This document shows, piece by piece, positions 45,790 to 64,000 of a DNA stretch of 64,000 bases; the stretch's first letter is position 1; the number at the start of each line of letters is the position of its first letter. Under the pieces are notes generated by a model. It was not told where the DNA came from and made no database searches. It was given only the letters and a program-made list of their open reading frames with translations. Made by a program: the position numbers and the translations under genes. Origin of the DNA: Entoloma clypeatum (lineage: Eukaryota; Basidiomycota; Agaricomycetes; Agaricales; Entolomataceae); assembly GCA_963565915.1 (NCBI GenBank), contig OY751487.1:3038001-3102000 (forward strand). The letters are read 5' to 3'.

Positions 45790-48700
45790 CCCTTCTAAGG
45801 CGCGGCGTCTCGATGCGCAAGGCGAAATGTACAGGACTTGAAGGCCGTTGCAGCGATTCAACGTGGAGCTCCCGGGTGTCGGCGGTAAAATTCCCGGACC
45901 AGGCACGGAGCGTGGACATCCTCCTCCGTCTCCCATGAGTTTTCCTTGTAGCCGTACCCCTTCCACTTGACTAGGAACTGCAGCTTGCCTCGTTGAAGCT
46001 GACTATCCAAGATCATTTCGACTTCATATTCCATTTCTTCTCCGACTGTGGTCGGAGGTGGAGGGATATGGACATCTCATCGGAAGGGGTCTTTCGGAGC
46101 CAGCGACAGTTTTACAATGTGGAATACAGGGTGAATGCGAGACATAGAAGGAGGGAGTTTGAGTTCGTACACATGTGTTCCGACAGGTCGGACAACCAGA
46201 AACGGGCCTACATATCTATGAGCCAGCTTTCTGGTCGGTCGGGTGGTTTTGAGGTTGGAGGAATCCAGAAAGACCTTGTCGCCCAGTTGGAAGGTCGGAG
46301 TAGATGTCCGACGCTGGTTGTAGTACCGCGCCATGTCATCTTTGGCCTTCCCCAAGGCTGCTTGTGCTTCCTCCAATGCGGACTTCATCTGCTTGCTGAA
46401 ATCCTCTATGGCCTCGATCTCTGACGGTCTTTGTCGGGGTGACGTCCGGTGTCGACGTAGAAGGGGGTTTGGCACGTGGACGTGTGGACATGATTATTGT
46501 ACGAAAACTCTGCCATCTGAAGCCATTCGTCCCAATCGTCCTGTTGCTCATTGACAAACAGTCGGAGGTATTGTTCCAATCCCTGGTTCACATGTTCTGT
46601 CTGTCTGTCCGACTGCGGATGGTAGGCTGTCGAGGCAGCAACCTTGATACCTAACAGCCTGTACAATTCCTGCATGAACTTGGCGATGAACTGTGGTCCG
46701 CGATCGGAGACAATGGCCTCCGGAAGACTGTGAAGCTTCCAAACATGTTGAACATAAGATTTGACAGATCCGAGGGCGGAGGGAGCGGAGTGCGTCGGAA
46801 TGAAGTGTCCATGTTTCCCGACTGAGTCTACTACTACCATGATAGCGTCATACCCATGGGCTTCTGGTAGTTCAGTGATAAAATCAACACTAGTTACCTG
46901 CCATCACTCCGACGGGACTCGGAGCAGATGGAGTTCACCAGAGGGTGCGGAGCGTCGGACCTTGGTGCGGAGGCAGGGGTCGCAAGTTTTGCAATACTGA
47001 CCAATTAAACGTGCCATGTGGGGCCACCAATAAGTGGGTGATACCAACTCTAGAGTCTTCCAGCATCCTGGGTGTCCGACCACCGGATTGTCATGGTGTT
47101 GCGTGATGATTTGTTGGCGGAGCTGTGGGTTGTTGGGCACATAAATGTGATCTCAGAAGTACAGTAAACCCTCTGACTGTTGCCATTCTGCTCCGCAGAT
47201 GGATGCAGCTCCGACTGTCAGAAGGGATTTGATGACCTCCGCTATGCCATCCTCTAGAAGGCCATCGCGGATGCCCTGTCGGACCTTCCAGAGGACATCG
47301 CGCTCCTCACCTTGAGTGGCTACTCCCCAAGTGGCCCGTATGGCAAACAGCTCCGGTCAGAGTAGGACTATGTCCTCGTTGTCCCATGAGCCATCTCCAT
47401 GGTCCGCCCGACGCAACAGTGCGTCGGACTTCCCCATCGACTTGCCCAGTCGATGGTGCATCTTGAAATCAAAATGCGCTAGGTATAGAGACCACCGCAC
47501 TTGTCGCCGATTGAGCTTCTGGGCGGTCATGAAGTATTCGAGGTTTTTGTGATCGGTCCAAATTTCCACCATCTTCTCCGCTCCTTCAAGGAAATGTTGC
47601 CATTCCTCCAGCGCGCGGATTACAGCCAGCATCTCCTTGTCGTGAATTTCGTAGTTGCGTTCCACTGGGCTAAGGCTTTTGGAATAAAACACGACAGGGT
47701 GCCACTTACCGTCCTCCGACGGTTGGGACAGTACCGCTCCAGTCGCAAAGTCGGAGCTATCCGCTTCGACTCGCCACTCCTTGCTGTGGTTGGGGAGGAC
47801 AAGTATCGGAGCGGAGGTGATCCTCCGCTTCAGACCTCCAAAGGCCCCCGCTTCCTTGTCGCCCCAGGACCATACACAGCCCTTGGTTGTGAGTCGGAAC
47901 AGAGAACGTGCAATGTCGGAGAACCCTTGGATGAAACGATGATAGAAGTTAGTGAATCCAAGGAAGGACTGCACCTCCCGCACGTTAGTCGGAGTCAGCC
48001 ACTCCGACACTCTGGCTACCTTGATGGGGTCCATTTCCACACATCCTTTCTCAATAATAAGGCCAAGGTATTTGATCCATGTCTGTTCGAATTCACACTT
48101 CTCCGGTTTGAGATACAATCCGTGTTGTCGGAGCCGCTCTAATACTATGCATGTGATCCTCCGATGCTCTGACAGGTCCGACGTAAAGATGAGAATATCA
48201 TCAAGATAGACACATATGCCACCTTCAGCAATAAGATCTTGTAGGATATCATTCATCATAGTCTGAAAGATTGAAGGACTATTAGTGAGTCCAAAGAACA
48301 TTACAAGGGGTTCGAAGAGTCCCTGATTTGTCCGAAAGGCCGCTTTCCATTCATCTCCAGGCTTGATTCGGACATTATTGTAGCCCCATTGGATATCGAG
48401 CTTGGTGAAGTATTGAGCATTCTGGAGTTTGTTGACTAGTTCGGAGATGAGCGGAAGAGGGTAGTTGTTTTTGATAGTCTTGGAATTGAGCGATCGATAA
48501 TCCTGAACGAGTCAGAGGGAACCATCCTTCTTCTTGATGAAAAAGACCGGAGAGGCCATCGGAGATTTTGAAGGTCGGATCCGACCAGTGGCCAGATTTT
48601 CTTCCAAGAAAGCATTGAGTTCCTTCTGTTCCTTCGGAGCGAGCGGATACACCTTGCAACCCATCGGAGTTGCATTGGGGATCAGCTCAATGGCATGGTC

Positions 48701-49690
48701 CCATACACGTTCCTCTGGCAGATTGTCGAAGGAGGTCTTGGAAAATACATCTTCAAAATCATGTAAGTGATTAGGTACAGAATCATGAAAAGACTTGGGT
48801 TTCTGGGAGGAATGCCTCTGATAGGCATTGTGAGGTAGTTGACGATGCTCGGACAAATTCCGATGTCGGAGGTAGGGCTCCGATGAAGAGGTGATCTCCC
48901 TCTTCAAACTCGTCTTCCTCCTCCGCATCATCTTCCAACGGCTCATCCGATGATTGTTCTTCGTCCTCGCTTATGTCTTCCACCCAAAGGCCTCGCGGGG
49001 CTTCCTCCGCTAATCCAGCATCTGGCGTCGGACCCATCCGACAAGTGCGGATGCATGCCTGCTCGAATTTGCTGACCTTCCGCTCCTGAATGGCCTCCTG
49101 ATGGCAAGTCCGACAGCGAGTGGGACAGCGACTCATTCTCACCTCCCTGGAGGTCCAATCTACCTCAGGATTGTGCTCCTTGAGCCATGTGAATCCAAGT
49201 ACAATATCCTGCTTTCCCAGTCCAGTTACAGCGAGCTGGGTCCGCTCTGTGTGATCCTGATATCGGAGTATAATGTCCAGGACCTCCGATATTGCTCCGG
49301 CATCATTTGGAGTACCGTCGACATTGTAGACAGGGATTGCACGTTGTAGCCTTCGGGTACTGAGTCGATGTTTCTCTACCAGGGAGTGGTCAATGAAGGA
49401 GCCAGTCGCTCCGCTATTGAGAAGAGCCTTTTGTGAAAGGGTATCCTTGGTGTCCATTGCCTCCAGAACAACATCTAGTTCAATAGCATTGTCGGAGCCG
49501 TCGGAGGCCAGGATGTATTTTTTCGGAAGTTGTCGTTCCCATTTTCGGACTCGGGGTCAGACGACTTTCAGAGTCGGGGTAGGTGTGACTGAGGGTTCAT
49601 TCTGCGCCGAGTCATAGGGAGAAGAAGTAAAATCCGATTCATCTATAGACAAGGAAGCATAACAATTGCTAGTGGACAACGAGGGCACAC
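45790..49690 (-). pseudogene. Ty3-4 pol
   Basis: Read right to left: protease (49457-48783) whose active site reads LLNSGATGSF, that is Asn where Ty3-3 has the catalytic Asp; an acidic linker; reverse transcriptase (48946-47357 region, YLDD near 48200); RNase H (VEADSSDFATGAVLSQ, 47720-47780); integrase finger (46904-47140), core (46406-46840, DRGPQF and YHPQSDRQTEHVNQ) and C-terminal domain (46077-46475); and a chromodomain at 45900-46030. Stops and frame changes occur near 48510, 47350, 47140 and 46410. It serves as a useful sister copy for locating damage in Ty3-3. Confidence 0.9.
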
Positions 49691-50830
49691 CATTCACTCG
49701 TTGTCGGGGGGAAAATCCTCTTGTTTGTCTTCCGCTTGCTCCTGCATCTTTAGTGGCTAGTTGGTCCATCATGTACTCCTCTGTTCGTCCAACGTCATGA
49801 ATCAGACGTCGAATCGGAGCGGACACTCGCGACTGAAATGACCAGTTTTACCACATCTGAAGCATACATTGGTGTTCTTACCCCTGACACGAGAGGCATC
49901 GATATCCATCGCATTGGGGTCGCGGATGGTCGGAGTCGGAGCAATGACTGTCGGAGGTGCACATGGAATATAGGGGATGAAAGGTCAGGGAAATACAGAT
50001 CCTGCCGCTGCCTTCGGTGCGGTCGGAGCAGTGCGGAAAGGGTTCGGGCGTGTCAGAACTGTGGACTTGAAAGCTTTATTGGCAATTTGATTATCATTGT
50101 TGACTCATGCGGCTGCATACCAGGCATCTGGGTTGTCATCCGCGGGTCGTCTGAAAGTTAGTGTCGCAATTTCGGATTGGATGTCGGATCGGAGGCCATG
50201 TCAGAACTTAAGTACTATGTTCGTTCCTTCGGTGTACCCAGCCTTTTCGACATAATCCTTGAAGCCGTCAATGTAAGCCTCCACATCCCGACTACCTTGG
50301 TAATAGGCTTCTCCCTCAAGAATGAGCCATGCATCTTGTTCTTCGTTTTTCGGAGTGAACTCTGCGATGAACGCAGTTCGGAACTGCACCCAGGTCTGGT
50401 GACACAGAGCTCCGGTCCGACGCTCTTGTCGGATGACGCGGTTGGCAAAGCGTGCAGCACGTCCACTCTTTATGAAGGAAAGTGCCCAATAGATCCTAGC
50501 ATGATCATCTGCAAACTGTTCCAGAACCAGTCCCATATACAGTTCACAAGAATTAAGAAAAGTCCAACCAGTGGTATGTGCTCCGTCGAAGTCTGACGGA
50601 GTTGTGGGTTTGGCCCGATGCACACCTGGATTGGCAGGTGTGATCGGGGCTGGCCAGAAGGCCGGAACTGGGGCCTCTGCTGGAGGGGGAATCGGGTCAG
50701 GGTTGGGAATGGGAACAGGTGGAATAGCGGCACGGATAAGTTGTTCGAGTTGAGCGGTAATGTTGGTGAGGGTCTGGCGGTGTTCCTGGAACTCACGTTC
50801 AAGCGCAGTAAGACGTTCGGGGTCGTCCAT
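49691..50830 (-). pseudogene. Ty3-4 gag
   Basis: Gag from MDDPERLTALEREFQEHRQT (ATG at 50830), through the capsid-like region (SDFDGAHTTGWTFLNSCELYMG; YYQGSRDVEAYIDGFKDYV), to a stop TGA at 50201 where Ty3-3 has arginine. It then continues with a further TGA at 50104 (arginine in Ty3-3) and a CCHC knuckle around 49830-49872 (CFRCGKTGHFSREC). The proline-rich linker after the first 40 residues is longer than in Ty3-3. Broken, but alignable throughout. Confidence 0.87.
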
Positions 50831-51007
50831 TTCTATGTGCGATATGGAGTCACCAGTTACAGAGTGGTAGGCAGAATGGTGGGAAGAGGGATCGGAAGGG
50901 GTGTCAGATGTACCGGAATCGGAGGAGGGCGGACTCAAGTCCGTGTTGTCAACTCCAAAGCACAGAATGGCTTCAATGGTACAATTCGTACCTGGTCCGT
51001 TTAGAGA

Positions 51008-51017
51008 GAACTTTCTA
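51008..51017 (-). other. Ty3-4 primer-binding site (self-complementary)
   Basis: AGAAAGTTCT on the minus strand two bases after the 5' LTR. It is complementary to AGAACTTTCT in the LTR (51103-51112), which follows a CTATATAG box (51138-51145) by about 26-33 bp. Confidence 0.72.
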
Positions 51018-51019
51018 CT

Positions 51020-51409
51020 GTAAGGGCGACCTTACGATCCAACAACTCCGAAGTGCTCTGAAGCGACTCCGACGTCAAACAACTTGCAAGGGAAATCCAA
51101 AGAGAAAGTTCTGAGGATTCCCTTGCAGGCTAGACAGCTATATAGATGACGAGAATTGGAAATGAGGAGGAATATATAAATTGGAAGTGTGCATGTGGTG
51201 GTATAAATCATTGCTCCAACGTGCACTCCGACGCAGAGGACGGGTCGGAAGTGTCGGAGGTCAGAGGTGTCGAAGGATAGATGGAAACGAAAGGAAACGT
51301 AAAGTATAGTAATATAAATAATAGACGTACCACAACGGTCGGAGGGTTGGAGGATGAATCGGAGGTGTCGGGGGTGTCGGATTGAGGAAATCGGATGGTT
51401 GCCCTTACA
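51020..51409 (-). repeat. Ty3-4 5' LTR
   Basis: 390 bp with the same termini as 45291-45783 but two internal deletions, one between direct repeats. Confidence 0.92.
51138..51145 (-). promoter_or_regulatory. TATA box of Ty3-4 5' LTR
   Basis: CTATATAG, placed to start transcription at the AGAACTTTCT sequence that matches the primer site. Confidence 0.6.
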
Positions 51410-51414
51410 CTGCT

Positions 51415-52462
51415 CGTGTACCACTGCAAACACCCCAGTTCATGACACTCTTCAGAAACTGGCCCACATATTGCTAGATAAGAAGGATAGGGTTAGATAC
51501 TGTATTTTTGAACATGAAATTTGGAAAATAGAAACCTCAGTGCATTTGAATGTTCGTAAGATACTTGGACACCTTTCTTTGATGATTGCTAGGATAATTG
51601 AGCATGCGAGGAGGCAGCTCACTGTGATACCACTTGATCTGATTGATTTAAGTTGGTCCTTGATCTCGGCAACAATGTCAGGGTAGGGTGTGAGAACTCC
51701 AACTCACCCCGTTCCAGCCAAGGTAGAACATCACCCAACATTTTTTATTGTTGCTGCTGACCATCATTTCTTGTTGTTCCTCAAGAGCCATTTATGTACT
51801 GTACCGCAGTGGAGTCGTCCAAAGAGATTGGGATGTTTGCGCTGGAGTGTGGAGACAATGTAACAAGGGAACCAGGCAACCTTCGGTGCAACCCGATTGA
51901 TGTGAGTCCAGAGAAACGGATGGTACCAATTGACACACTGATGTTTTCCTTGTTTGACACCCCTTTTCTTCCCATTTCTGACTGGTTTCCAGGCTTGACC
52001 TTCGGGACGAGAGATTGATGCTAGATCCTGCCACGGCGAGCGACAAGATGTGTCATCGCCCAAAACCAGCACCTTCATCTTCCGCCCACCTCTTAATGTT
52101 GAACTTGACTTGGCTTTCCTCTTCTTATCATGATGTCTCTGCTGTCGCACTCGATTCATCTCCTTCTTCTCTGTCTTTTGTTTTTCCTCCTTCCTCTGTT
52201 TCCCTTCTGCCTCAACCTTAGAATCCATGGAATACTTCTCAAAATTCTGCTTTTGCTACTCTCGGGCATCTTGGAGGGAAATCCTGTTACAGCCAACATC
52301 AAAAAGTGTGCGTTGCCATTGTTCATGGGGCTTGGATGGCTTGGGCCTTGGTGTTGTATCGTCGGCGGTGACGTGGGGAGCTTTTTTTGGGATAGTGTTG
52401 ACTGGGGGATTCTCATCATTGCTCGGCACAAGAGTGGGCATGCGCTTTCGGGTTTTGGACAT
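51415..52462 (-). pseudogene. DDE superfamily endonuclease-like gene, 5' part
   Basis: The start is MSKTRKRMPTLV (52462), followed by QRTLFDVGC, a basic coiled stretch (RVRQQRHHDKKRKAK), the segment NWYHPFLWTHINRVAPKV...LQRKHPNLFGRLHCGTVHKWL and the motif GVLTPYPDIVAEIKDQL (51610-51690). This is the characteristic N-terminal half of the mushroom DDE-endonuclease family, with DNA-binding-like parts ahead of the catalytic domain. Stops at 52256 (TAG, expected CAG), 51764 and 51704 (TGA, expected CGA) interrupt it. It joins the catalytic part at 45290 across Ty3-4. Confidence 0.75.
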
Positions 52463-52720
52463 GGGAGGTGAGTTCTCATGTCTGAGTCATCGCTAAATAA
52501 CAATGGAATTGACATTCTGGGGAACAATTCTAGTGGCATTCTTTGATATCTTGGTAACATTCCTATTCTTGGCTGGTGGACTAATAGCTCATCTACAGAT
52601 TCTCAGTACACTCCAGAACAGCTGTTGCTTACTGAAAGCTCACCTTTTATTCGGGATCTTTGCTCCCATGGCTTGTGCTGCCTTCGTCACCCGCCCAATC
52701 CAATGTTTCAGGTAGAACTC
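52463..52720. other. Short intergenic stretch, no gene
   Basis: Lies between the start of the DDE-like gene and the end of the split unknown ORF. A 70-codon plus-strand frame here has no domain and I do not call it. Confidence 0.45.
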
Positions 52721-52886
52721 TCAGTCCCCATCCGAAAACTTCTTTGCGACACTCCGAAACAGCGCAATCAAATTTTTGAGGCTTTCCCCGCGCTCAGTCA
52801 GCTGTATGATTCTGCCTGGTGCCATGTGGGTCCAAAAGATATTCTCCAAGTGTCGGTTGAATGCATAGGCCAAGCCTTCTTCTTTC
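52721..52886 (-). pseudogene. Unknown host ORF, 3' part (split by hAT-3)
   Basis: Minus-strand frame DVKEEGLAYAFNRHLENIFWTHM then GRIIQLTERGESLKNLIALF...KKFSDGD. With the hAT-3 element and one ACATCGTC removed, it continues directly from the frame at 60431-60577 (..FSLDEDD/V..), giving an open frame of about 108 codons that starts MASTTSALTS. I do not recognise it. It has no obvious targeting signal and has helical, charged composition. It could be a small host gene, an exon of a larger one or another decayed element. Confidence 0.6.
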
Positions 52887-52894
52887 ACATCGTC
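52887..52894. repeat. Target-site duplication of hAT-3, left copy
   Basis: ACATCGTC, repeated exactly at 60423-60430. Confidence 0.95.
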
Positions 52895-53040
52895 TAGTGT
52901 TGCCGCGACTCGGCTAGCCGGGTATTTGGCTAGCCAAGCTGCATCAAGCCGGGTGATTGGCTCACCAAGCTGAGCCAAGCTATGTCTTCGGCTTTCTCCA
53001 GCTCTGGAGCGGCTTCAAAGCCGGCTCAAGCCGGCTTCGT
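52895..53040 (+). repeat. hAT-3 left terminus with subterminal repeats
   Basis: TAGTGTTGCCGCG followed by many copies of GGCTAGCC, AAGCCGG and GGCTCAAGCCGG. Confidence 0.88.
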
Positions 53041-53129
53041 GATGAGACATCAAAATAATAGATAATAAAAAAATAAACATATATATATGGGATTATGCAA
53101 ATATATACAGCATGTCATCTACTGCCCGT

Positions 53130-56063
53130 CTACTCCGTGTCACCCAAATCAGGGCAAATAGCACCTAGTACTTGATTAAATGTGTCTTCACCCAAATTGG
53201 CATCTGCAGACAATAAAGTATTCAAGAGATCAACATCGTCATCGGCATCATCTGCAGGATCAATCATATCTTGCATAGGTGTTAGAATACCCTCCATAAA
53301 GTCCAACCGTTCACACCAAATAGCGAACTTCATGATTTGAAGGGCCTCAAACAAGTTCGGATTAATCCTATTTCGGCACTTGGTGTCGGTCTCGCTGGCT
53401 GAAGAAAAAATGTGTTCGCAAGGAACAGCAGATGCCTGAATGGGCAAATAGTCCAGGGCAATTCGATAAATCGTAGAGAACTCTTCTTGATTGCCTGACA
53501 CCTGCAAAGAATTCTCGTTAGCATCGTGGCATCAGCACTTGACTCATGAAATGACTACTTACATTCCAAAATCCAATCATGTTCGTGCCACGAGGTGATA
53601 ATACTCTCATATATGCTGCAAACTCTTCATCAACCGTCTTCGAACCCTGGATCTCTCGCAAGGGGGTATCCAGGTCCATCATGTCAATGAGCTTGTACTT
53701 TGCTGCCACCTGGTAAATCTGGTCTTCATTGGTTGAAGGCCGCGGCGCAACCGTTGACGGTGGGGTGGTGATACCAGGGTAGCGGGCACGATAATCGGTC
53801 ATCTGTTAAATTCAATTAGAACTTAGAATAGTCTAATTGATCGCATATACCATTTTTTTGAGCAACGCCGCTGTTTCAATGACATAAGAATCTTTCCAAT
53901 GCTTTTTGATCCAGGAGAAGCGTAATGCAGGGTTAATGACTGAGTAATTTTAGTATTACACTAAGGTAAAAATGAAATAACTCACACATCCCTACTGCAT
54001 AGGCCCGCGAATTATCCATACGTGAATAATATTTCTTCGCCCATTCAAGCCCCACATCGGTAATTGGCTTGAGTTGTGTATTCTGGTCTCCGAGGTCATC
54101 TAGCGAAGTCATGAATAGCTCAAATTCTGGGACAACATTTCCAAGAGTGGGAGTTTTCTCTGCGCATGGCCTTTCTTGGACTACATGAGGCAACTGGATC
54201 GATAAATTAGAGAGAGAAAGTAAGAGAGAAAAGTGGGACGTACCGCCAACACAGCATTAATGTCCTCAAGTCGGCTCCACTCTGCACGCGTCATTTTCAG
54301 GTGCATTAACTCATTGTTACTGAAACAAAATAATCGACGGGCTATGCTTCTGGTGAGCCAGGAGTTCCCATGATCAAATCACCAACTTACGGGTCGCAAT
54401 TCAAGGAACCTTTTGGTCATTGTGTGGACAGAGTCCCACCTTGTCCTCACATCACGAAGAAGCTGGACTTCGCGAACCCACACAATTTGCGACCCAATGA
54501 CAAACCACCCCCTCGCGTTGCCAAGTTTAATGGTGTCGGTAAAGATGTCGATACGTTGACCTGATGATTGAATGCCACGAACGGTATTGCGGCAGATGAC
54601 CACCACATCGCGTCTGCCGGCACCGGAACCAACATCTCCTGCGTAGTCATCAAAGTCATCGGAATAGCTGGTGCTGGTCGCGGCATCAACCATATGTCCA
54701 GTGCAAATGGCCACGACGTGCGGGAAGCACATGATGCACCTGTCCTTGGCATCAAACCAACTGGAGATACCACACAATGCAAGGCCAGATTGAAGGCCCT
54801 GCATGAAGGTGTCATTCATGGATGCATTGTCTAACGTCCAATGGCCCATCTTCAAGCAGAATGTTAAATTTGAAAAGATAAGAAGTGAATAGATCTTACT
54901 CTAGTGGTGACTTTGGCCCGATCTGTGATATTGAGAGCAATTCTCGCCAGCCGCTCTCCGCTGTGGTTTCCGTGAACCTGATGGAAGGCGATGAGCCCAC
55001 TACACATTGTCAGAACATTGAGGGGATCCTTCCGTGCCATCCAATGCGTGGTAATGGCGAGGTAGGGATAGCGGGTTTTACTGGACCATAGGTCAGCTGT
55101 AAAGCTGATGTCTCCGAGCGCAGCCTAGGAGGCTGTGAGTGGCAGGTAGGAGTACAATACATAGGAGATTCTCACGTTGAGTTCTTCAATGAGATCTTGA
55201 AAATATTTCCTGAACCCTTTCATTATGACCTTCGCCATCTTCGTCCAATGTGGAATGAAGTCATTCTTGAGCCCATCCCGCATGTAAAGCAGGAGGTCGC
55301 GGAACTCACGGCATTCAACGACATAGAGAGACTAGACAAATACCATAAGAATGGAGAAGAGAATATATGATTATAGATAGCACCTGATTGTCTGCGACGA
55401 TGAATTTAGTGAGAACGTCGGCGAGACCGTCTTGAGTGAATGGAAAGAAGGGGCGCGAAAGGTCGGGGGATGCAGCAGCATCGGGAGCGACATACCCAGG
55501 CTTCTCATTATCCCCCAGATAATCAAGCCATCCCTCCTCTTTGCAGGTGTGGACATACTGGCCCTTGTGTTCGCGATGCAGATGGAGGCACAGAGGACTG
55601 GTCGCAGTCAAGACGCTGTACCGGAAGGTGATGCCATCCTCCGGTGTCTTTTGCAGTATAGCGTCGGGCGGGCTAGATATGGGATTAATTGCATGAGGAT
55701 AACGAGGAACATAGATGGGGCAAAAGTGTACCTGCAGAGCTAGCACACCTTCCTCTTGACCGTCTTACCGCCGACCTGTAGCTCCTCCGTCTGGAAGAAT
55801 CGTAATACGTTGAGCGCTCTCTTCCTGGACTTGGGCAGCTGCTGCGTCACCGACTGAACCTGGACGGACAGCGTCGTGAACTGAGTTGTCCCGTTGGAAA
55901 GAGGACCAGGCTTGACAGAAGCGTCGGCAGCTTCTGCTTGCGTGGCGGCACGAACTGAGGACCAATCGAAGTCTTCGCCCTCGGGAGACCAATCGCGCAT
56001 AGGCTGATGACCAGCCCTATGCTGGGATCGACTACGAGTTTGGGTTGGAGCAGGAGCAGGCAT
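53130..56063 (-). CDS. hAT transposase (multi-exon)
   Basis: Cuts and joins the hAT element at its terminal repeats in the nucleus. From ATG 56063: a basic/proline N-terminus; a BED-like region (FRYSVLTATSPLCLHLHREHKGQY, about 55560-55640); the segment CREFRDLLLYMRDGLKNDFIP...MKGFRKYFQDLIEELN (55180-55320); SFTADLWSSKTRYPYLAITTHW with the first catalytic Asp (55045-55110); WTLDNASMNDTFM with the second (54800-54850); FPHVVAICTGH and VRTRWDS at 54400-54740; and the C-terminal dimerisation domain SAVPCEHIFSSASETDTKCRNRINP (53330-53430). Short introns with GT..AG ends separate these blocks. I saw no stop inside the exons, but exact borders are by eye. The stop is at 53130. Confidence 0.88.
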
Positions 56064-56589
56064 GATGGGTGAGGAGAGTGCAGGATGAGTGGGGATGCAA
56101 CGGTGCATTCCACCAGCGGGTCGCGAGAATATTTATTCCAAGAATGAAGTCCAAAGCGGAGCTCCTAAACAACGATTGATTGGTTGCATGGTGCGAAATG
56201 AGGTGATGGTACATGTACTGTGGATGTTTGAGGGATTCCTTAGCATGAAGGCACCACAACTCGCTGGTTCTGAAGATTTCAAATTTAATTAAGTTCAACG
56301 CGGAAAAGGGTGGACCTACGTAAAAGAACATGAGGTGGGGACGGGGACGCCAAGATGAAGGCGATGGAGGGTGGAGTACAACGAAGCCTGAGCAATCGCG
56401 GATTACTCAGTGTGATCAGCGGTTGAAAGAGGAGGCGACTTACTGGACCACCACCATGAGGTGGCTAGCTGTGTAATCTATCAGTCAAATGTTCGGAAAA
56501 CGAACACATGCTGATATATTACCTCGGAATATCCCTGCAGGAGCTGTGTACGGCTGAAGCGAGATCACGACGAGGCAGGGAATGACCGC
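56064..56589. other. hAT-3 interior between genes
   Basis: The promoter side of the transposase gene; no further gene recognised. Confidence 0.45.
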
Positions 56590-56877
56590 CTAGTAGTCGG
56601 TTATCAGTACTAGCGATGTAGGCCATCGTAGGCAATTGGGTTGAACGTGGTCATCAATAAAGTCTACAGATTGGCCAAAGAATTAGAGAGGTTAAAGGGA
56701 ATATGTGGATGGACTGACTGACCTTCCTCCCCTTCCTCCTCTTCCTCCTCTTTCTCCTCCTCCCCATCCACCTCAGCCTCGAGATCAAGGAACTGACGAA
56801 CATGGTCATAAGCCTACCAAATCAAAGTCAAATAAAATATGGAAGGCGATTCACGGATAACTTACAGGACGGCTCAT
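56590..56877 (-). pseudogene. Spt5-like N-terminal exons, inverted
   Basis: Three short exons on the minus strand: MSRP (56877-56866, donor GTAAGT), then AYDHVRQFLDLEAEVDGEEE continuing with a glutamate run (56813-56723, donor GTCAGT), then DFIDDHVQPN (from 56663) to a TAG at 56590. The pattern FLDLEAEVD, acidic run, DFIDD is typical of the acidic N-terminus of Spt5-like proteins. Splice phases agree across both introns. It is oriented away from the NGN/KOW gene that starts at 57315, so an inversion inside the element or a second, truncated copy are both possible. Confidence 0.65.
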
Positions 56878-57314
56878 GTTCTTGAGGCTGAGTTGACGAA
56901 TCTAGGGGGGCATATATTTAGCATAGTTCGGTATCTTTTGGGGAATGGGGAATTGAGAACGACGTAAAATAAACGCTCCGTTGGGATGTGTGGATATTGT
57001 AGGGACCTAGTGTGACATATGCCGGAGACGCCGACGCGTGAAGACATGTCCTAAAGGCGGCGGCAGAGTGTCGCCTCTTGGTCGCCTTGCACTTTCTTTC
57101 GTATTATAGACACCCATACAAGGGCTTATTGACTTATTATTTAGATAATGTACTACACTACTTCATAACTACTAAAGAAAAGAAGGGACTTACGGGTGGA
57201 TGGGGAGATGGTGGGGGTACAGAAGCAAGAGAGAAGGCATGCAAAAGCGCTGCTGAGTTGGCTGACATACATGAGTAATTGATTACAGAGACAGATGAAG
57301 ACCAGCCTCTCGCT
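56878..57314. other. hAT-3 interior, no gene assigned
   Basis: Between the inverted N-terminal exons and the Spt5-like gene. A 66-codon frame at 57078 has no domain. Confidence 0.45.
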
Positions 57315-59950
57315 ATGCCGGCCCAGTGTCAACTCCGCTGGCCCTCTCCTAAGGATTGGGGGCTATGGCACATCAAGTGTCGGGTAAGTTTTAGTCCATC
57401 GACTTATTTCTCTCCTAGTTTTTACGGATTCTATTAGCACGGTGTCAAGGAAGAGGCTGTCTTTGTACTCCTACAACTAGCAAGACCCTGGCACAAAATC
57501 CATGCAGCCTTCATGTCTTCTGAGCACGGATGCATCTACGTCAAAGCGATCATGAACCTGGAGCTTCAACACCTCCTGAGGTATACCCCTGGCATCATCC
57601 TCCGCCCCCCCGGTCGTCCCATCAAACTCTTCATTCCTCCCAATGATCGCCCGGCCACACTCACCATTACCACTCGCCCTGCAGATAGCCTGAAGGTTGG
57701 AGATTGGGCATGCATAACACAGGGACCTTATCAAGGCGACATTGGTCTCGTAACAGTGGTGGGGGGGTGGATAAAGCTCCTTGTCATGCCTCGCCTACGG
57801 CCACCTTTTTTCTCCCAGGATTTGTCCAAGCGCAAGCGCAAGTGTCCTGTACCCCCTCCTCCTCCCACCCCCATGCTTTTCGACCCCATCCAGTTCGCAG
57901 AGTCTCATGGGGTAGAGCTGACGCAAACTGGAGAAGATTTGTACCAATACCGAACATTTTATTTTGAACATGGACTCCTACTCAAGGACTTCGATTGTGG
58001 CACTATCTCGTCAAACGTAGTCTTCATGCCATTCTTCCTTGCCTCCCTCCTGCATCAGTGCAGCCATCCTAAGATAATAGCTGCTATGTTTCCTCCCCCG
58101 CGCGAGTGGGAATTTTTCGAAGGGGAAGAGGTAGATATTGTCGCTTCCTCAGATGATCTTGCAGAAAAGGCACATGTTGGGAAGAATGGCATAATCAAGG
58201 GGCTCGATGTTTGACATCTCGAAGTGGAACTCGCCACCGGAGAAGGTCACGTCTGCGTTCCTTGGGATGCTGCGCGTAAGCGACATAAAGTTGGCAAGTA
58301 CGTTCAGGTCAGCCACGGTCCTCAGCAAGGGCGTTTTGGATGGGTTGTCAGCGCTTGGGATGGCGAACTTGAGTGCACCGAGGAGCGTCCACCGCCTCCC
58401 GGCATTGAAGACTCACAGTTTGTTCCACGGGTTGAGGTAAGATCCACTGTTCCCCAAACTCATCTACATACTTATCCTATTCAACAGAAATTCACCATCC
58501 ACGTCAACAGCGCCAAGAAGACTGATGTGCCCTATTACCACTCCGCCAAGCGACCCAGTGTCTTCGACAAACTTTGCCCAGACCTTCCTCAGCTGGAGTC
58601 GGCATCAGAAGACAAAGTCCCGCTACGAGTTCCTTGGAGGAAGCTCGAGGTGGTAATTGTTGGAAATGGGGAGCTGAAGGGCAGGACAGGCACCGTACGC
58701 AACGTCTACATCAACAGAGGCACTGCAAGCGGCCTCAAGATCAATGTTGAGCTCAATACCTACAGCGGGAGCCATTCATTCAACTGAAGGCAGTTAGATT
58801 ATGACCATGTCGTTGAACGGAGGTTTGCCATGCCCTGCTTTTATTTTCTTCATTCATTTAATTTAATTCATATAGGAGTAAAATTCAGCTATTCGATTAC
58901 AGGCGCCCCGATGACAAACGTTTCCAACCTCTCCCCCGTCCTCGCAGGCTCATGCATTCGGGAAACATCAGAATCATAGATCCATCCAGTGGCAGAACAC
59001 CAATGCCTGCTCTGGATCAAATCTCGCTTTCGCCAGCTTGGGACCCTTCGTCGCGCACGCCCGGGAATCCCTACGCCGGGCAATCTGAGGGTGAAGGTCA
59101 CATTGCCTCTGCCTCCTATGATACGACCCGTCGCCCCGCGAAGGACTATGATGGTGCCATCAGCCCAACTTGGAATCCCTATGCCAAGGAACCCAATTGG
59201 GGAGGCAAAGGTCGGATTGCCTCCGCCTCGTATAACACGGACCATCCCCCCGCGAACGACTATGACGGCGCCATCAGCCCAACTTGGAATCCCTATGCCA
59301 AGGAACCCAATTGGGGAGGCAAAGGTCAGATTGCCTCCGCCTCGTATAACACGGACCATCCCCCCGCGAACGACTATGACGGCGCCATCAGCCCAACTTG
59401 GAATCCCTACGCCAAGGAACCCAGTTGGGGAGGCAGAGATCGGATTGCCTCCACCTCGTATAACACGACCCGTCCCTCCACAAACGATGCCGTCAACCCA
59501 CCTGCACCTGCACCTCCAAGCCACATTCTCCTTGACCCACGGCTTGAGAACATCAAGGTCACAGCAAAGGTGACAAGCGCAAGCCACACTAAGAAGTCCA
59601 TGACTGTGTGGGGCACAGTCCTGGGTGGCGTCCGAAGGATTGTTTACTCTTCAAACAAAGTGCTGCAGGATATAACGATGGCACAAGTGGTACTCGAAGC
59701 CCCCAGTCCTACGCGTACTGATTCCCTTCTCGTTGTTATCAGTGGAGAGAACATTGGGACCTTTGTACGTCGGGTTACCCATGAAGGACATGGACCTACC
59801 AGCCTTGCCATTTGCAGAGTTGTGACCCGGGAAGAGGGCTCCAGGGACACGGTCACTTCGACGACGTTGAAACTGCGGCCCGAGGATCTTGCACTGGTTG
59901 TGGAGACGGCAGAGCAAAAAAAAATTGAATCAAGATATACTGAAGGATGA
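57315..59950 (+). pseudogene. Spt5-like transcription elongation factor homologue carried by hAT-3
   Basis: Spt5 with Spt4 binds RNA polymerase II and controls elongation. Here exon 1 (ATG 57315) gives DWGLWHIKCR and is spliced (GTAAGT at 57384, acceptor before 57438) to HGVKEEAVFVLLQL...IHAAFMSSEHGCIYVKA, an NGN domain. KOW-type segments follow: VGDWACITQGPYQGDIGLVTVV (57695), VGKNGIIKG (58176), VGKYVQVSHGPQQGRFGWVV (58290) and GNGELKGRTGTVRNV (58668). Then SPAWDPSSRTPG and three 38-aa repeats with SPTWNPYAKEP resemble the Spt5 C-terminal repeats, and a last KOW-like domain begins LLDPRLENIKV (59530-59920). An in-frame TGA at 58212 (arginine likely) and a break near 58785, before an intron, suggest one damaged copy. 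It lies wholly inside the hAT-3 termini. Confidence 0.85.
59100..59475 (+). repeat. 114-bp tandem repeats encoding the C-terminal repeat of the Spt5-like protein
   Basis: Three units of 114 bp start at 59162, 59276 and 59390 (AGCCCAACTTGGAATCCCTA). Units two and three are almost identical. A fourth, diverged half-unit precedes them. Confidence 0.88.
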
Positions 59951-60422
59951 GCGTGCATCTGTAAGAAAATGTTGCTGAGGTAGGTATTCACATTGTCTTC
60001 GAACATTTTCACAAGCTAATCAACTCAGTAATTTGCTTTTAGATCTATTCGTCCACGACACTGACATGTAGGGGAGCAACCACCAAACTGACCATGACAC
60101 TCCTTCTGGAAACGGGGTTGGGTAGTGATGCGTGATAGCTGCGCGGGAGTGATGGTACCTTCGGATTCTGCTCTCGCATATCTTACTGGTCCCTATTGTA
60201 ATTGTCAGATTCAATGGATGATGTTTTATTGTTTCTCTCATCTGCCTGTCACAATTCCTGCCTTTGCCCACTGGGAGCCGGCTCGAGCCGGCTTCCGAGC
60301 CGGAGCCGGAGCTTCAATCAGCTCGGCTCTGATGAGAATTTGCCTTCCACGGCTCGGCTACGGCTCCCCGATGGCTTGGCTCCGGCTCTAGCCGGCTCGG
60401 AGCCTGAGCCGCGGCAACACTA
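59951..60422 (-). repeat. hAT-3 right end with subterminal repeats
   Basis: No gene. From 60275 GAGCCGG/AGCCGGCT motifs accumulate, ending CCGCGGCAACACTA at 60422, the complement of the left terminus. Confidence 0.85.
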
Positions 60423-60430
60423 ACATCGTC
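60423..60430. repeat. Target-site duplication of hAT-3, right copy
   Basis: ACATCGTC, identical to 52887-52894. Confidence 0.95.
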
Positions 60431-60577
60431 TTCGTCCAAGCTAAAGTCGTACGAGGCCTCAGAGTGAGGTGGATCAAGTGGCATGGAAGCTGGAAGGTAT
60501 TTAAAAAGCATTGCAAGATGGTTGATTGATGTGTAGATGTTGGGAGGAACAGATGTCAGTGCTGAAGTTGTGGAGGC
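60431..60577 (-). pseudogene. Unknown host ORF, 5' part (split by hAT-3)
   Basis: Starts MASTTSALTSVPPNIYTSIN and runs to FSLDEDD at the insertion site. The rest is at 52721-52886. The family is not recognised; an acidic end and no transmembrane segment are all I can say. The start is chosen because it is the first ATG of the frame. Confidence 0.6.
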
Positions 60578-60923
60578 CATTCTGGTTGACGTCGAGAGGC
60601 GTAGTTTGCAGGACAGTGCAGTTCAAAGTAGAATTTCGACAAAATTTCAACAATAATAACATTGCTTGATACATCCACTAGTAATGTTCGCAAATTATGA
60701 CTGCCGGCGAATCCCTCCCCGACGGTTGCCTATTTTGGCATCCGTAATGCCTAACGCGACCTCGGTTGCTAACACCAGTCATTTACGGAACGTAACGCAC
60801 CCAGACCCCGTTGCCACCATTCATTTGGCCACAGTAAACAAAGTATCACATGGACATGCTCTTTTTGACTTGACACAGCCACACTGACCTTTGGGTGAGG
60901 CATAGTCATCATAAGCTGTTATT
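60578..60923. other. Intergenic region
   Basis: No domain-bearing frame seen; presumably holds the 3' end of the D-lactate dehydrogenase transcript and the upstream region of the split ORF. Confidence 0.5.
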
Positions 60924-63297
60924 TTAATCAGTGTATGTAGTCTTGGAGGGATTTCGCTTGTCAGGATATAACTTTGGCTCAGGCTGAGTATGAAGAAAAG
61001 TTGGAATACCAGTGGTGTCTCACCTTTCCTGGATTCATCAGATTCAAAGGATCAATAACTGATTTAATGGTTCTCATTAATTCAACTGTCCCCTCTCCGA
61101 GTTCATCGATGAGGTAGTCTTTCTTTCCAACACCGATTCCATGCTCTCCAGAACCTGTCAAGGAGTCAAGGGAGTGGAAAGAAAACAGCGGCTAGACCTG
61201 GACTTACATGTTCCGTCAAGTGCTATCGCTCGGCGCACGAGACGATGGACGGCCTCGGCCACCGATTTGAGCTCGTCGTCGTTATGGAAAAGGATTAAGG
61301 CATGAAAATTACCATCTCCTACATGGCCAACGATTGTGCTCCGTAAACCTGCATCCACAAGGTCTTTTTTTGTTTCCAGGACGAGTTGGGGCAAACGCGA
61401 TATCGGAACGCTCGAGGAAGCATCATGCAACTTGATTTATCATGAAAATAGTCGTCAGTCTTACCACACATCTGTTGTCCAACAACGACTCCCTGGATTT
61501 GCTGCCATCGTTGACGTCAACGCAAATTTGCGATTTTGCCACAAGTTCTGGGCGTCTTCCTCCGTAGAGGTAACTTCGAAACGTGTACTCCCATGTGCCT
61601 CAACAATGGTCTGGATAGCCCTGAAGGTCTTTCGACTGGAAGTCGGATCGCCTTGAATTTTGAAAAAGAGGGTGTCTTCAATAGGATAGCGATGGTCCAC
61701 GAAACCTGCGATATTGATTGACTCCATCACTAAAAAGCAGTTCATATCACTGGAGTGGAGCGATAAGGTAAATACTAACTGCGGTCGTCAAGTAACTCGA
61801 CACATTCTGTCCTGCGGTGTAAACAGAGACTGATGGCGAAATATATATATAAAAACCCACGAATGTGAGGGCCGTCAGGGGAGCTGAGAATCTCTTGCAC
61901 TGCCCTAATAGCGCATTCTACGTTACGGAACTGAGCCACCGCGACGTTGGTGGGAAGAATAGGAGCCAAACGAAGGGTTGCTAGGGCAGATCAGGATAGA
62001 GCATCCAGATAGACTGGAAAACCAAATTGACCTTCTGTGACAATGCCTAACGTTCCTTCAGCGCCGATGAATAACTTGGTTGTATCGAAACCAGTTGCGG
62101 ATTTTCGGGCTCTTCTGCGTGTCTTGATGACTTCGCCATTGGGGAGAACAACAGTCTGGACGACGATGAGACGGTAGGAGAGTGTAGGATGAAAGAAGGC
62201 TGACGACGTTGAGAAACCACTCCCCTCGAGCAGTCCCGTATCGGACGGCGTTTGCTTAATGCGTAAACATTAGTCAGACAGCTGTCGGAAAACGAACAAG
62301 AAGAAGACTGACTTCCGCTACACCCTGTGCCTATCATTCCGCCAATAGTCTATCAATGTGAGTCGATTGAGATGCTGTGTTATCCCTTGATGAAGACTCA
62401 CAGCACCCGGCCCGGGATCCAGCTATGATACATATGTGAGCGGTACAATGTGGGAAAAGCAAGGAATATTCACAGGGAAGAAAAGAGGAATTCCTTTTTG
62501 CTTTAAAGTCTCGTTGATGTCTTCCCAGCGAGCTCCAGATTGGCAAATCAAATCGGAGTCAGCGACTTTGGACGTTTTCGATCAGTGAATGTGAGATAAG
62601 AAGACAGACAGCGCATCCCACCGTTAATCTTGAGAATTCGGTCCATTCCAGACATGTCCAAGCAAATGCTACCTGATGGGTGCTGATGAGGAATTCAGCA
62701 TCAGATTTGCGAGGCGGGAGGATTAAACTGTCACGCCTGAAGTATGACCCTCGAGACTTGTGGCACCGCCGTAAGCGACAACGGGAAGCTTATATTTGCG
62801 AGAGATGTTGACGACTTTGACCACGTCGGATGTTTGCATGGGGCGGACCTATGACCAGTGAGAAAGATGTATATTCCATGGTTTTTCGCATCGACTTACG
62901 ATAACGGAATGTGGAGATGTAGGGTGATAAGAATTTTCAGAAAAGCCATAAGTGCGTAATGCATCTGGGTCGGTGGTGACGTCATTTGGATTAGGAAAGG
63001 CTTCGCGTAAGTCTTTGAGAGCGAGCTGTATTTCTTTGTAGGATCCATATGGTTGTATTTCTGCCGGTACCTGTTACAAGATGTCGCGGGTGTTTAGGAC
63101 ACTCAATGAAGGTACGTTGGGATACGCACGAATAGATAGGAGTCGATGGCTTTGGCGACTCCGAAGATGCATACGGCATAGAATAGAGACTTTGTTGCAG
63201 GTGACCATGAGGGATGTCCGATAGGAGGAGGAGGAGGAGGAGGAGGAGGAGGTCGGGGACGATGAAAACGATATCGTGACAGAGATCTCTTGAGCAT
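60924..63297 (-). CDS. D-lactate dehydrogenase (FAD-linked, mitochondrial)
   Basis: Oxidises D-lactate to pyruvate, passing electrons to cytochrome c; an inner-membrane mitochondrial flavoprotein of the FAD-binding oxidase/VAO type. The start [14 protein letters not shown] (ATG 63297) looks like a mitochondrial leader, followed by a ten-proline run and a hydrophobic segment ([15 protein letters not shown]). FAD-domain motifs follow: [44 protein letters not shown] and [16 protein letters not shown]. The cap domain and C-terminus follow: [28 protein letters not shown] and the spliced end [15 protein letters not shown] with TAA at 60924. About a dozen short exons, including one of 21 nt at 62402-62422. 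It is the clearest ordinary host gene in the window and appears intact. Confidence 0.93.
62402..62422 (-). other. 21-nt microexon of the D-lactate dehydrogenase gene
   Basis: Encodes LDPGPGA, bordered by TATCATAG before and GTGAGT after, between the exon ending LFFP (62474) and the exon starting TIGGMIG (62349). Phase is kept on both sides. Confidence 0.82.
63222..63250 (-). repeat. (GGA)n microsatellite coding polyproline
   Basis: About ten GGA triplets on the plus strand, read as CCT/CCC proline codons near the start of the dehydrogenase. Its length is likely to vary between strains. Confidence 0.85.
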
Positions 63298-63428
63298 TGT
63301 ATGTACTTGTTTGTTTTTCCTTGGACAAAATGTCCTGATAAGGAAACACGTACAGTTTGCCACTGCCCGTCTGAAATGGCAGACAAATCCGCGGAATTCT
63401 TGGTGGAAGACCGCGTCGCACAACTCGA

Positions 63429-64000
63429 GTGAGTTCATCATCATCCGACTCCTCTTCGATTGTCCTCAATGTACGCAGGGCCATCTCAGAACGTCGGAAT
63501 GCACTCCTTCGCCAAATGCATCAGATGATACGACGTAGGAATGGTGTAGGCGCTCTTCTTACCCTTGAGCATGAGGATCACGATGACCTCGCCCTGTTCT
63601 TGAAACGTTTTCGCATCACTCTACCCGAGTACGTCTTCCTCTGAGCATTTGTTCCCCTTCTGTCGCAGATCTTCCTTCATTAGCACTGAGTCTGGCAGTA
63701 TAACAACCCTCCACCAGAGCGAGCTATACAGCCCGTCTTCACCAGTTCCAACACCTCAACTAATTATGTTGAGCGGAGATTCACCGCGAGTGCCTCATAA
63801 GACATCATTGACGTCAAATGATTCCGTTCAGTTGATGCAAGAAAAATCTCCAACTCCTGCAGATTCGGTTGTTCCATCCCCGCTCAGTCAACAATCGGAT
63901 GAAGAACATGACGAACTTGATCTTTTCAGGGAAATTCAAAGTTCCTCAAGACCTAAGGCCACCGGAGTACCCCCGTCACACCTCCAAAGACATATCCTTC
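63429..64000 (+). CDS. Unrecognised host gene, 5' part (runs off the window)
   Basis: A plus-strand frame with ALLTLEHEDHDDLALFLKRFRITLPE is spliced (GTACGT at about 63629, acceptor CTGTCGCAG near 63669) to an open frame rich in Ser, Pro, Thr and acid residues (SSFISTESGSITTLHQSE to SSSRPKATGVPPSHLQRHI) that continues past 64000. The start is uncertain: the frame is open from 63429, and the first ATG is near 63518 (MHQMIRRRNGVG). The low-complexity acidic/serine composition suggests a disordered regulatory or nuclear protein. It is divergent from the dehydrogenase, with starts about 130-220 bp apart, so the two may share a promoter region. Confidence 0.6.

Follow-up and report, generated by a model that had tools for sequence, protein, structure and literature searches.

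The 64,000-nucleotide stretch of the Entoloma clypeatum genome considered here (the window; C5:3038001-3102000, in an assembly that spans 60 Mb over 20 contigs) contains a hAT transposon at positions 52895-60422 in which the transposase gene is accompanied by a second gene, predicted to encode a paralog of Spt5. Spt5 is a core factor that assists RNA polymerase in transcribing genes. The element is 7,528 bp long; its inverted ends are identical over 13 bp and are flanked by a target duplication that matches at 8/8 positions. Its features are as follows, with positions given in the window.

52887-52894: left target-site duplication, ACATCGTC, an 8/8 match to the right copy
52895-52907, plus strand: left terminal inverted repeat, TAGTGTTGCCGCG, 13 bp, identical to the right end and on the 3' side of the transposase gene
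53127-56063, minus strand: hAT transposase gene, about 810 amino acids (aa) from ordered open exon pieces, with borders predicted by eye
56064-57296: region between the two divergent genes, with one inverted-repeat arm left; several sister copies have an inverted repeat of part of 56635-57271
57297-59950, plus strand: Spt5-like gene with predicted NGN domain, KOW series, C-terminal repeats and C-terminal domain, recognized partly via a sister copy on contig C15; the 5' part is lost
58212-58214, plus strand: in-frame TGA in the Spt5-like frame; the C15 sister copy has an Arg codon at this position
59090-59487, plus strand: tandem repeats of about 114 bp encoding C-terminal SPTWNPYAKEPxWGG units
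60410-60422, minus strand: right terminal inverted repeat, TAGTGTTGCCGCG, 13 bp, identical to the left end and on the 3' side of the Spt5-like gene
60423-60430: right target-site duplication, ACATCGTC, an 8/8 match to the left copy

The ends are short terminal inverted repeats (TIRs) of the hAT type, beginning TA/CA. A preliminary description of this stretch had reported a perfect 8-bp duplication at inverted termini, and this is what we observe, with ACATCGTC lying outside TAGTGTTGCCGCG at both ends of the element. When positions 47001-64000 of the window were scanned de novo for exact 8-bp duplications beside 14-bp inverted ends (≤2 mismatches, ≥300 bp apart), this pair was the only one recovered. 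The scan revealed no internal hAT termini with a duplication, and a separate insertion of the Spt5 part into the window element was rejected on that ground. In-silico removal of the element and one duplication yields an uninterrupted minus-strand open reading frame (ORF) across the junction; a genome search found no unoccupied second copy of the insertion site.

The hAT transposase proposed between these termini is borne out: the assembled exon pieces are open, and the PF05699 dimerization domain passes its cut-off (2.8e-7; 30.7 bits versus 21.4), with candidate acidic residues of the DDE triad picked by eye. A putative AC transposase of Mycena venus (P0015; 36% identity over 46%) is the sole protein match to the transposase at E ≤ 1e-20. 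Protein searches of the genome itself with the transposase exons gave 38 and 37 matches, and identity to the window's transposase core distinguishes clade 1, to which the window element belongs (89-95%), from the other clades (38-50%). The Spt5-like exons gave 56, 84 and 57 matches, which fall into identity classes of 68-94%, 55-59% and 27-45%. Clade 2b (C6:411674 and C10:4299189) is 54-59% identical to clade 2a in the main Spt5 exon and 52-58% in short stretches of the transposase. The pairing of transposase and Spt5 is common to three subfamilies.

By its series of domains and its C-terminal motif, the cargo protein is predicted to be an Spt5 paralog. In the window copy itself, the Pfam matches of the Spt5-like exons lie below the curated cut-offs (KOW 0.033, KOW5_SPT5 8.4e-4) and NGN is not scored; relative to the copy at C12:246292, 539 bp upstream of position 57288 are missing, a stretch that encodes the acidic N-terminus in sister copies. 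The assignment is better made from the C15 sister copy, which is 86% identical to the window gene over 258 aa and aligns to fungal Spt5 chains from NGN to KOW (E 4.7e-6); the frame at C15:2460775 is the longest open one among the clade-1 sisters listed (620 aa, with a short intron read through). Foldseek placed an AlphaFold2 model of the C15 copy, itself of modest confidence, closest to 5oik_Z, a chain of the RNA polymerase II (Pol II)-DSIF complex (8.8e-19), and single domains of the model match KOW1-linker1 of 4ytk (TM 0.80) and KOW2-KOW3 of 4ytl (TM 0.87, both by target length). The NGN family PF03439 exceeds its cut-off at nine places in the genome, two of them (C8:1828159 and C9:1524449) inside two-ended elements, and in three Panaeolus relatives (P0003-P0005) the NGN match reaches 1e-8 to 2.6e-8. 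Clade 1, clade 2 and the Panaeolus proteins have in common a C-terminal AWDPSSRTP motif or a near variant of it, and a TPAW/SPAW-type C-terminal repeat (SPAWDPSSRTPG / STPAWDPSSRTPG) is present in clade 1 and 2 frames. The earlier claim of a protein with NGN domain, KOW segments and C-terminal repeats therefore stands as to Spt5 identity, by way of the C15 sister copy and the DSIF match, and does not stand for the window copy as an intact gene with a scored NGN domain.

We next consider how widely the two genes occur together. Clustering (Spt5-like hits up to 4.5 kb apart) resolved 63 Spt5-like clusters and 36 transposase loci, counts that are approximate because the host Spt5 and other distant paralogs are among the clusters and because some copies are divided (C11:2178066-2190511, for instance, makes two clusters). 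At a linkage distance of 15 kb, an Spt5-like cluster accompanies 22 of the 36 transposase loci, with divergent orientation in 21 of the 22; this count supersedes a first tally, in which 18 of 48 Spt5-like loci had a transposase nearby. Uniform random placement, which disregards the clustering of repeats, gave a mean of 1.2 and a maximum of 7 linked loci in 2,000 trials (sizes of C13 and C14 estimated; contigs without hits excluded), versus the 22 observed; the orientation count is independent of placement. The gene had been regarded as an accidental capture in the event that no other copy of the family contained it; the 22 linked loci show that other copies do.

The ends of the family keep a fixed relation to the gene. 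Across the genome, a 21-base end pattern (≤3 mismatches) occurs at 90 sites versus 2 for a reversed control, and a clade-2 right-end pattern at 37 versus 0, for 118 distinct sites when both are pooled. In 20 of the 28 loci with a right end, that end lies ~270-355 bp beyond the Spt5 C-terminal exon, distances that mix the inner and outer edges of the pattern (~20 bp). No wrongly facing end was found within 12 kb on the Spt5 3' side of the 48 loci examined. Three loci that were first scored as Spt5-free (C9:4664095, C15:2516846 and C10:1278132, among 17/35) adjoin an Spt5 C-terminal exon when searched.

Inward-facing end pairs separated by 0.2-25 kb number 30 in the genome. Transposase sequence is held by 16 of them, and Spt5-like sequence also by 15 of these 16, representing 14 distinct pairs because the same right end serves C1:4022617 and C1:4030026. 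The 20 longer pairs divide into 15 with both genes, one with Spt5 only, one with transposase only (C1:4486921-4504026, which spans 17 kb and is possibly no true pair) and three with neither. In the 14 pairs whose flanks were read for duplications, the match is 8/8 in six (the window, C8:1825931-1831928, C11:2178066-2190511, C15:2100263-2122167, C10:4297516-4306574 and C9:4659575-4666125) and 7/8 in one (C9:1519057-1527419), and all seven of these elements hold both transposase and Spt5-like sequence. A 7.5-kb pair of family ends, C8:1470536-1478080, has no transposase or Spt5-like match and could carry other cargo or belong to a diverged subfamily.

The two genes also share a history. In 21 of the 22 linked loci, transposase and Spt5 belong by identity to the same subfamily, the exception being C11:1882869, where a 56-aa transposase match of 52% lies beside an Spt5 of 93%. 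A tree of Spt5-like proteins and host Spt5 (46 proteins, 310 columns; IQ-TREE, LG+G4, 1,000 ultrafast bootstraps) had been proposed as a check. For this tree, loci shorter than 150 aa (C5_4573, C15_3285) and P0011 were excluded, stops were treated as X and the P proteins were cut at 620 aa. The cargo proteins, the unlinked copies and proteins from Panaeolus, Marasmius, Dendrothele and a metagenome form one clade with a support of 100, separate from the host Spt5 (C10:3766407) and from two further paralogs, and the cargo-type set of this genome groups with a support of 90. Since the tree is rooted on the host Spt5, the basal branching order is assumed. The two paralogs outside the cargo clade (C2:40829-41725 and C15:1518625-1519548) contain ORFs of 337 and 336 aa, respectively, and a frame beside the former holds SPAWDPSSRTPG.

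The region between the two genes is itself structured in several copies. The clade-1 sisters C15:2460775, C12:246292 and C6:1415344 have an intergenic inverted repeat with arms of ~310-405 bp that are 83-95% alike, and in C15:2460775 the inner arm stops ~20 bp before the likely Spt5 start. At C12:4325137 and C5:4547461, the intergenic stretch is also found in both orientations, and three clade-2 copies have intergenic palindromes of ~560-700 bp. Six other tested stretches, mostly 1.5-1.9 kb long (C8:1827, C11:3185, C2:510, C10:4299, C11:3131 and the window), have no inverted repeat. The arrangement suggests that these repeats may be mirrored promoters of the two genes.

With many copies, three subfamilies and a fixed place and orientation, the Spt5-like gene is almost certainly a stable cargo of this hAT family, as had been proposed. 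Its long-term retention is reflected in Nei-Gojobori ratios of nonsynonymous to synonymous substitution (dN/dS), which were computed for matches above 50% (clade 2) or 55% (clade 1) identity, longer than 70 aa and with dS of 0.02-1.5. Among the first 12 pairs listed for each set, deep clade-1 comparisons give 0.17-0.33, and the medians of the four exon sets are 0.51 (120 pairs), 0.49 (41), 0.56 (27) and 0.53 (14). This pattern is what leads us to conclude that there has been long-run constraint on the Spt5-like protein and that present copies are mostly decaying.

Beyond the status of cargo, we consider it probable that the element is a two-gene hAT unit whose Spt5 putatively aids the element's transcription via the Pol II elongation complex. 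The divergently transcribed transposase and Spt5 paralog are mobilized as a unit between one pair of ends; the cargo protein would join the Pol II elongation complex, with or without the host's Spt4, which was detected at a single locus; and the cargo elongation factor would ease the passage of Pol II through the repressed chromatin of the element itself, such that transposase is made. The binding of Pol II and Spt4, the effect on transcription and the benefit to the element are all conditional here, and a pro-transcription or anti-silencing role of the cargo, taken by itself, is a plausible proposal that we stop just short of favoring. Somewhat more tentatively, a mushroom transposon lineage may long have owned an Spt5 that turned into a putative anti-silencing or self-transcription factor, expressed from a mirrored promoter that also serves the transposase, and much of the multicopy Spt5-like set of Agaricales may be transposon-borne.

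Several observations weigh against this reading. The window's own Spt5-like copy is broken by the stop and the 5' loss, and stops occur in many other copies. The dN/dS values among copies center on ~0.5 (medians 0.49-0.56), and in six clade-2 pairs the ratio for the Spt5-like gene (0.52-0.81) is higher than that for the transposase (0.20-0.82) in three and lower in three; the Spt5 part is thus no more constrained than the transposase. The AlphaFold2 model has a pLDDT of 59 and a pTM of 0.39, and its whole-length superposition on 5oik_Z is poor (TM 0.23, root-mean-square deviation 19), a fit that resembles what domains strung in a loose chain might give. Within 15 kb, no Spt5-like match accompanies 14 of the 36 transposase loci, and for the one at C10:3887134, which is 92% like the window's, none was found in the adjoining 3 kb. 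Ten TIR pairs of 1.1-2.7 kb (two sharing a right end; e.g., C6:977545-978670) were found with neither gene, from which it follows that the cargo is not needed in cis. Half of the 14 pairs read for duplications have none (C1:4030026, C11:3179973, C10:583722, C15:2515320, C11:1881350, C12:235127 and C6:5018966), which may be through recombination between copies. The neglect of repeat clustering in the random placement belongs here as well. Finally, the proposal that pairing with hAT elements explains why Spt5-like genes are multicopy applies to part of the set: a transposase, an end facing the right way or both accompany 35 of the 63 clusters in this genome, and no transposase or end was detected near the other 28, which include the host Spt5 (C10:3766407).

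The explanation that competes best casts the cargo as a decoy or dominant-negative factor, which would titrate host Spt4 and Pol II or, in clade 1, Argonaute via WG repeats, and block co-transcriptional silencing instead of aiding elongation. The WGG units in the clade-1 C-terminal repeats (window 59090-59487) are reminiscent of Argonaute hooks, and such a role is also consistent with a weak PDB match to plant RDM3 (8hyj_W, 0.0012) and with the far divergence of the cargo protein from the host Spt5. However, WG units are not found in the C-terminal tails of the translated clade-2 copies L022, L023 and L025 or of P0003-P0005, in which AWDPxSRTP is kept, and the domain series is retained. With WGG confined to clade 1, the Argonaute hook is not conserved and that idea was rejected; we consider a decoy unlikely overall. 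Less likely again is a transposition accessory, a putative DNA- or target-binding cargo that would direct insertion into open or transcribed chromatin. Nucleic acid binding is a property of KOW domains, and the fixed co-transfer with the transposase fits such a role, whereas short derivatives without detected cargo carry the same ends, although a role in trans is possible.

That an Spt5 gene was once swallowed by a hAT element and passively amplified as an accidental passenger seems to us improbable. The many broken copies and the recent-copy dN/dS of merely ~0.5 are compatible with a passenger, and captured histone H3 in Dothideomycete hAT elements, as described in PMC6710886, provides a precedent. 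An unselected cargo would be expected to be lost or scrambled, and for this reason a passenger is disfavored: the place and orientation of the cargo are constant across subfamilies whose transposase cores are ~45-58% identical, the cargo proteins form one clade apart from the host Spt5 with the domain series kept, and deep pairs have the low dN/dS given above. It is very improbable that the Spt5 gene belongs to an independent element inserted into hAT copies, for although C15:2460775 and C12:4325137 (97% alike in protein) lack the usual right end beside the gene and carry a further upstream-arm copy downstream, the window element has no internal termini with duplication and the distance from gene to right hAT end is near-constant in 20 of 28 loci.

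The reading of the element as a two-gene unit with a putative elongation factor can be set against known systems. Transcription factors of the Spt5/NusG family are conserved in every domain of life. Like the canonical Pol II Spt5 of DSIF, the cargo protein has predicted NGN, KOW1-linker1, KOW2-3 and later KOW domains and a TPAW-like C-terminal motif; unlike it, the cargo is mobile and multicopy and is ~27-28% identical to the host Spt5 over the central part. Duplicates of Spt5/NusG with a specialized target include the RfaH/ActX-type NusG paralogs, plant SPT5L/KTF1 and ciliate Spt5m. ActX types ride on plasmids, which are bacterial mobile elements, and we know of none of these duplicates from a eukaryotic transposon. 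The WG/GW-repeat tail of SPT5L/KTF1 is not conserved in the cargo, where WGG occurs in clade 1 only.

The nearest known kind is that of fungal DNA transposons with a captured TET/JBP gene (Kyakuja, Zisupton, hAT7 and others; PMC12730594), a cargo thought, according to that report, to serve escape from silencing. As here, those elements are fungal, include hAT members and hold a captured host-type regulatory gene stably beside the transposase; their cargo is a dioxygenase instead of an Spt5 paralog, and the duplications of hAT7 are 7 bp versus 8 bp here (PMC12730594). No TET/JBP dioxygenase was matched by Pfam in the seven element ORFs of the window. The histone H3-bearing hAT elements likewise carry multiple copies of a housekeeping gene that they captured; according to PMC6710886, all captured copies there were inactivated by repeat-induced point mutation and only the original was spared; here, in contrast, a diverged paralog is kept through several subfamilies. 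In the literature searched, which left out Repbase and most subscription papers, no earlier description of Spt5 paired with a eukaryotic transposon appears among the papers listed, and "Spt5" and "KOW" are absent from the main texts of PMC12730594, PMC12062965, PMC10799480, PMC9674265 and PMC6416283.

If a transposon keeps its own Spt5, then elongation, beside DNA methylation, becomes a point of contention between mobile element and host, and the cargo offers a natural, far diverged Spt5 paralog. Gene models of mushrooms labeled "Spt5-like" or "NGN domain" are possibly transposon genes.

Two clade-1b copies, at C8:1807168 and C9:4104916, had no hAT ends within 10 kb when these were sought; 6 of the 10 ORFs scanned in their neighborhood have Copia, Ty3 or Tc1-type domains. 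An Spt5-like gene on C9 is surrounded by 2.8-kb arms that are 95% alike and inverted (L056:4643-7459 and L057:7184-10000), and a reverse-transcriptase ORF overlaps the arm. The element at C9:1519057 is nested in an 11,317-bp hAT-like element, C9:1517837-1529153 (L054:3071 into L055), which is delimited by ends TAGTGTTCGAAAGT with the 8/8 duplication TCTGCTTC. In the window, a retrotransposon gag-like ORF at 50201-51031 scores just under its Pfam cut-off, and stretches of the window recur in loci taken from other contigs.

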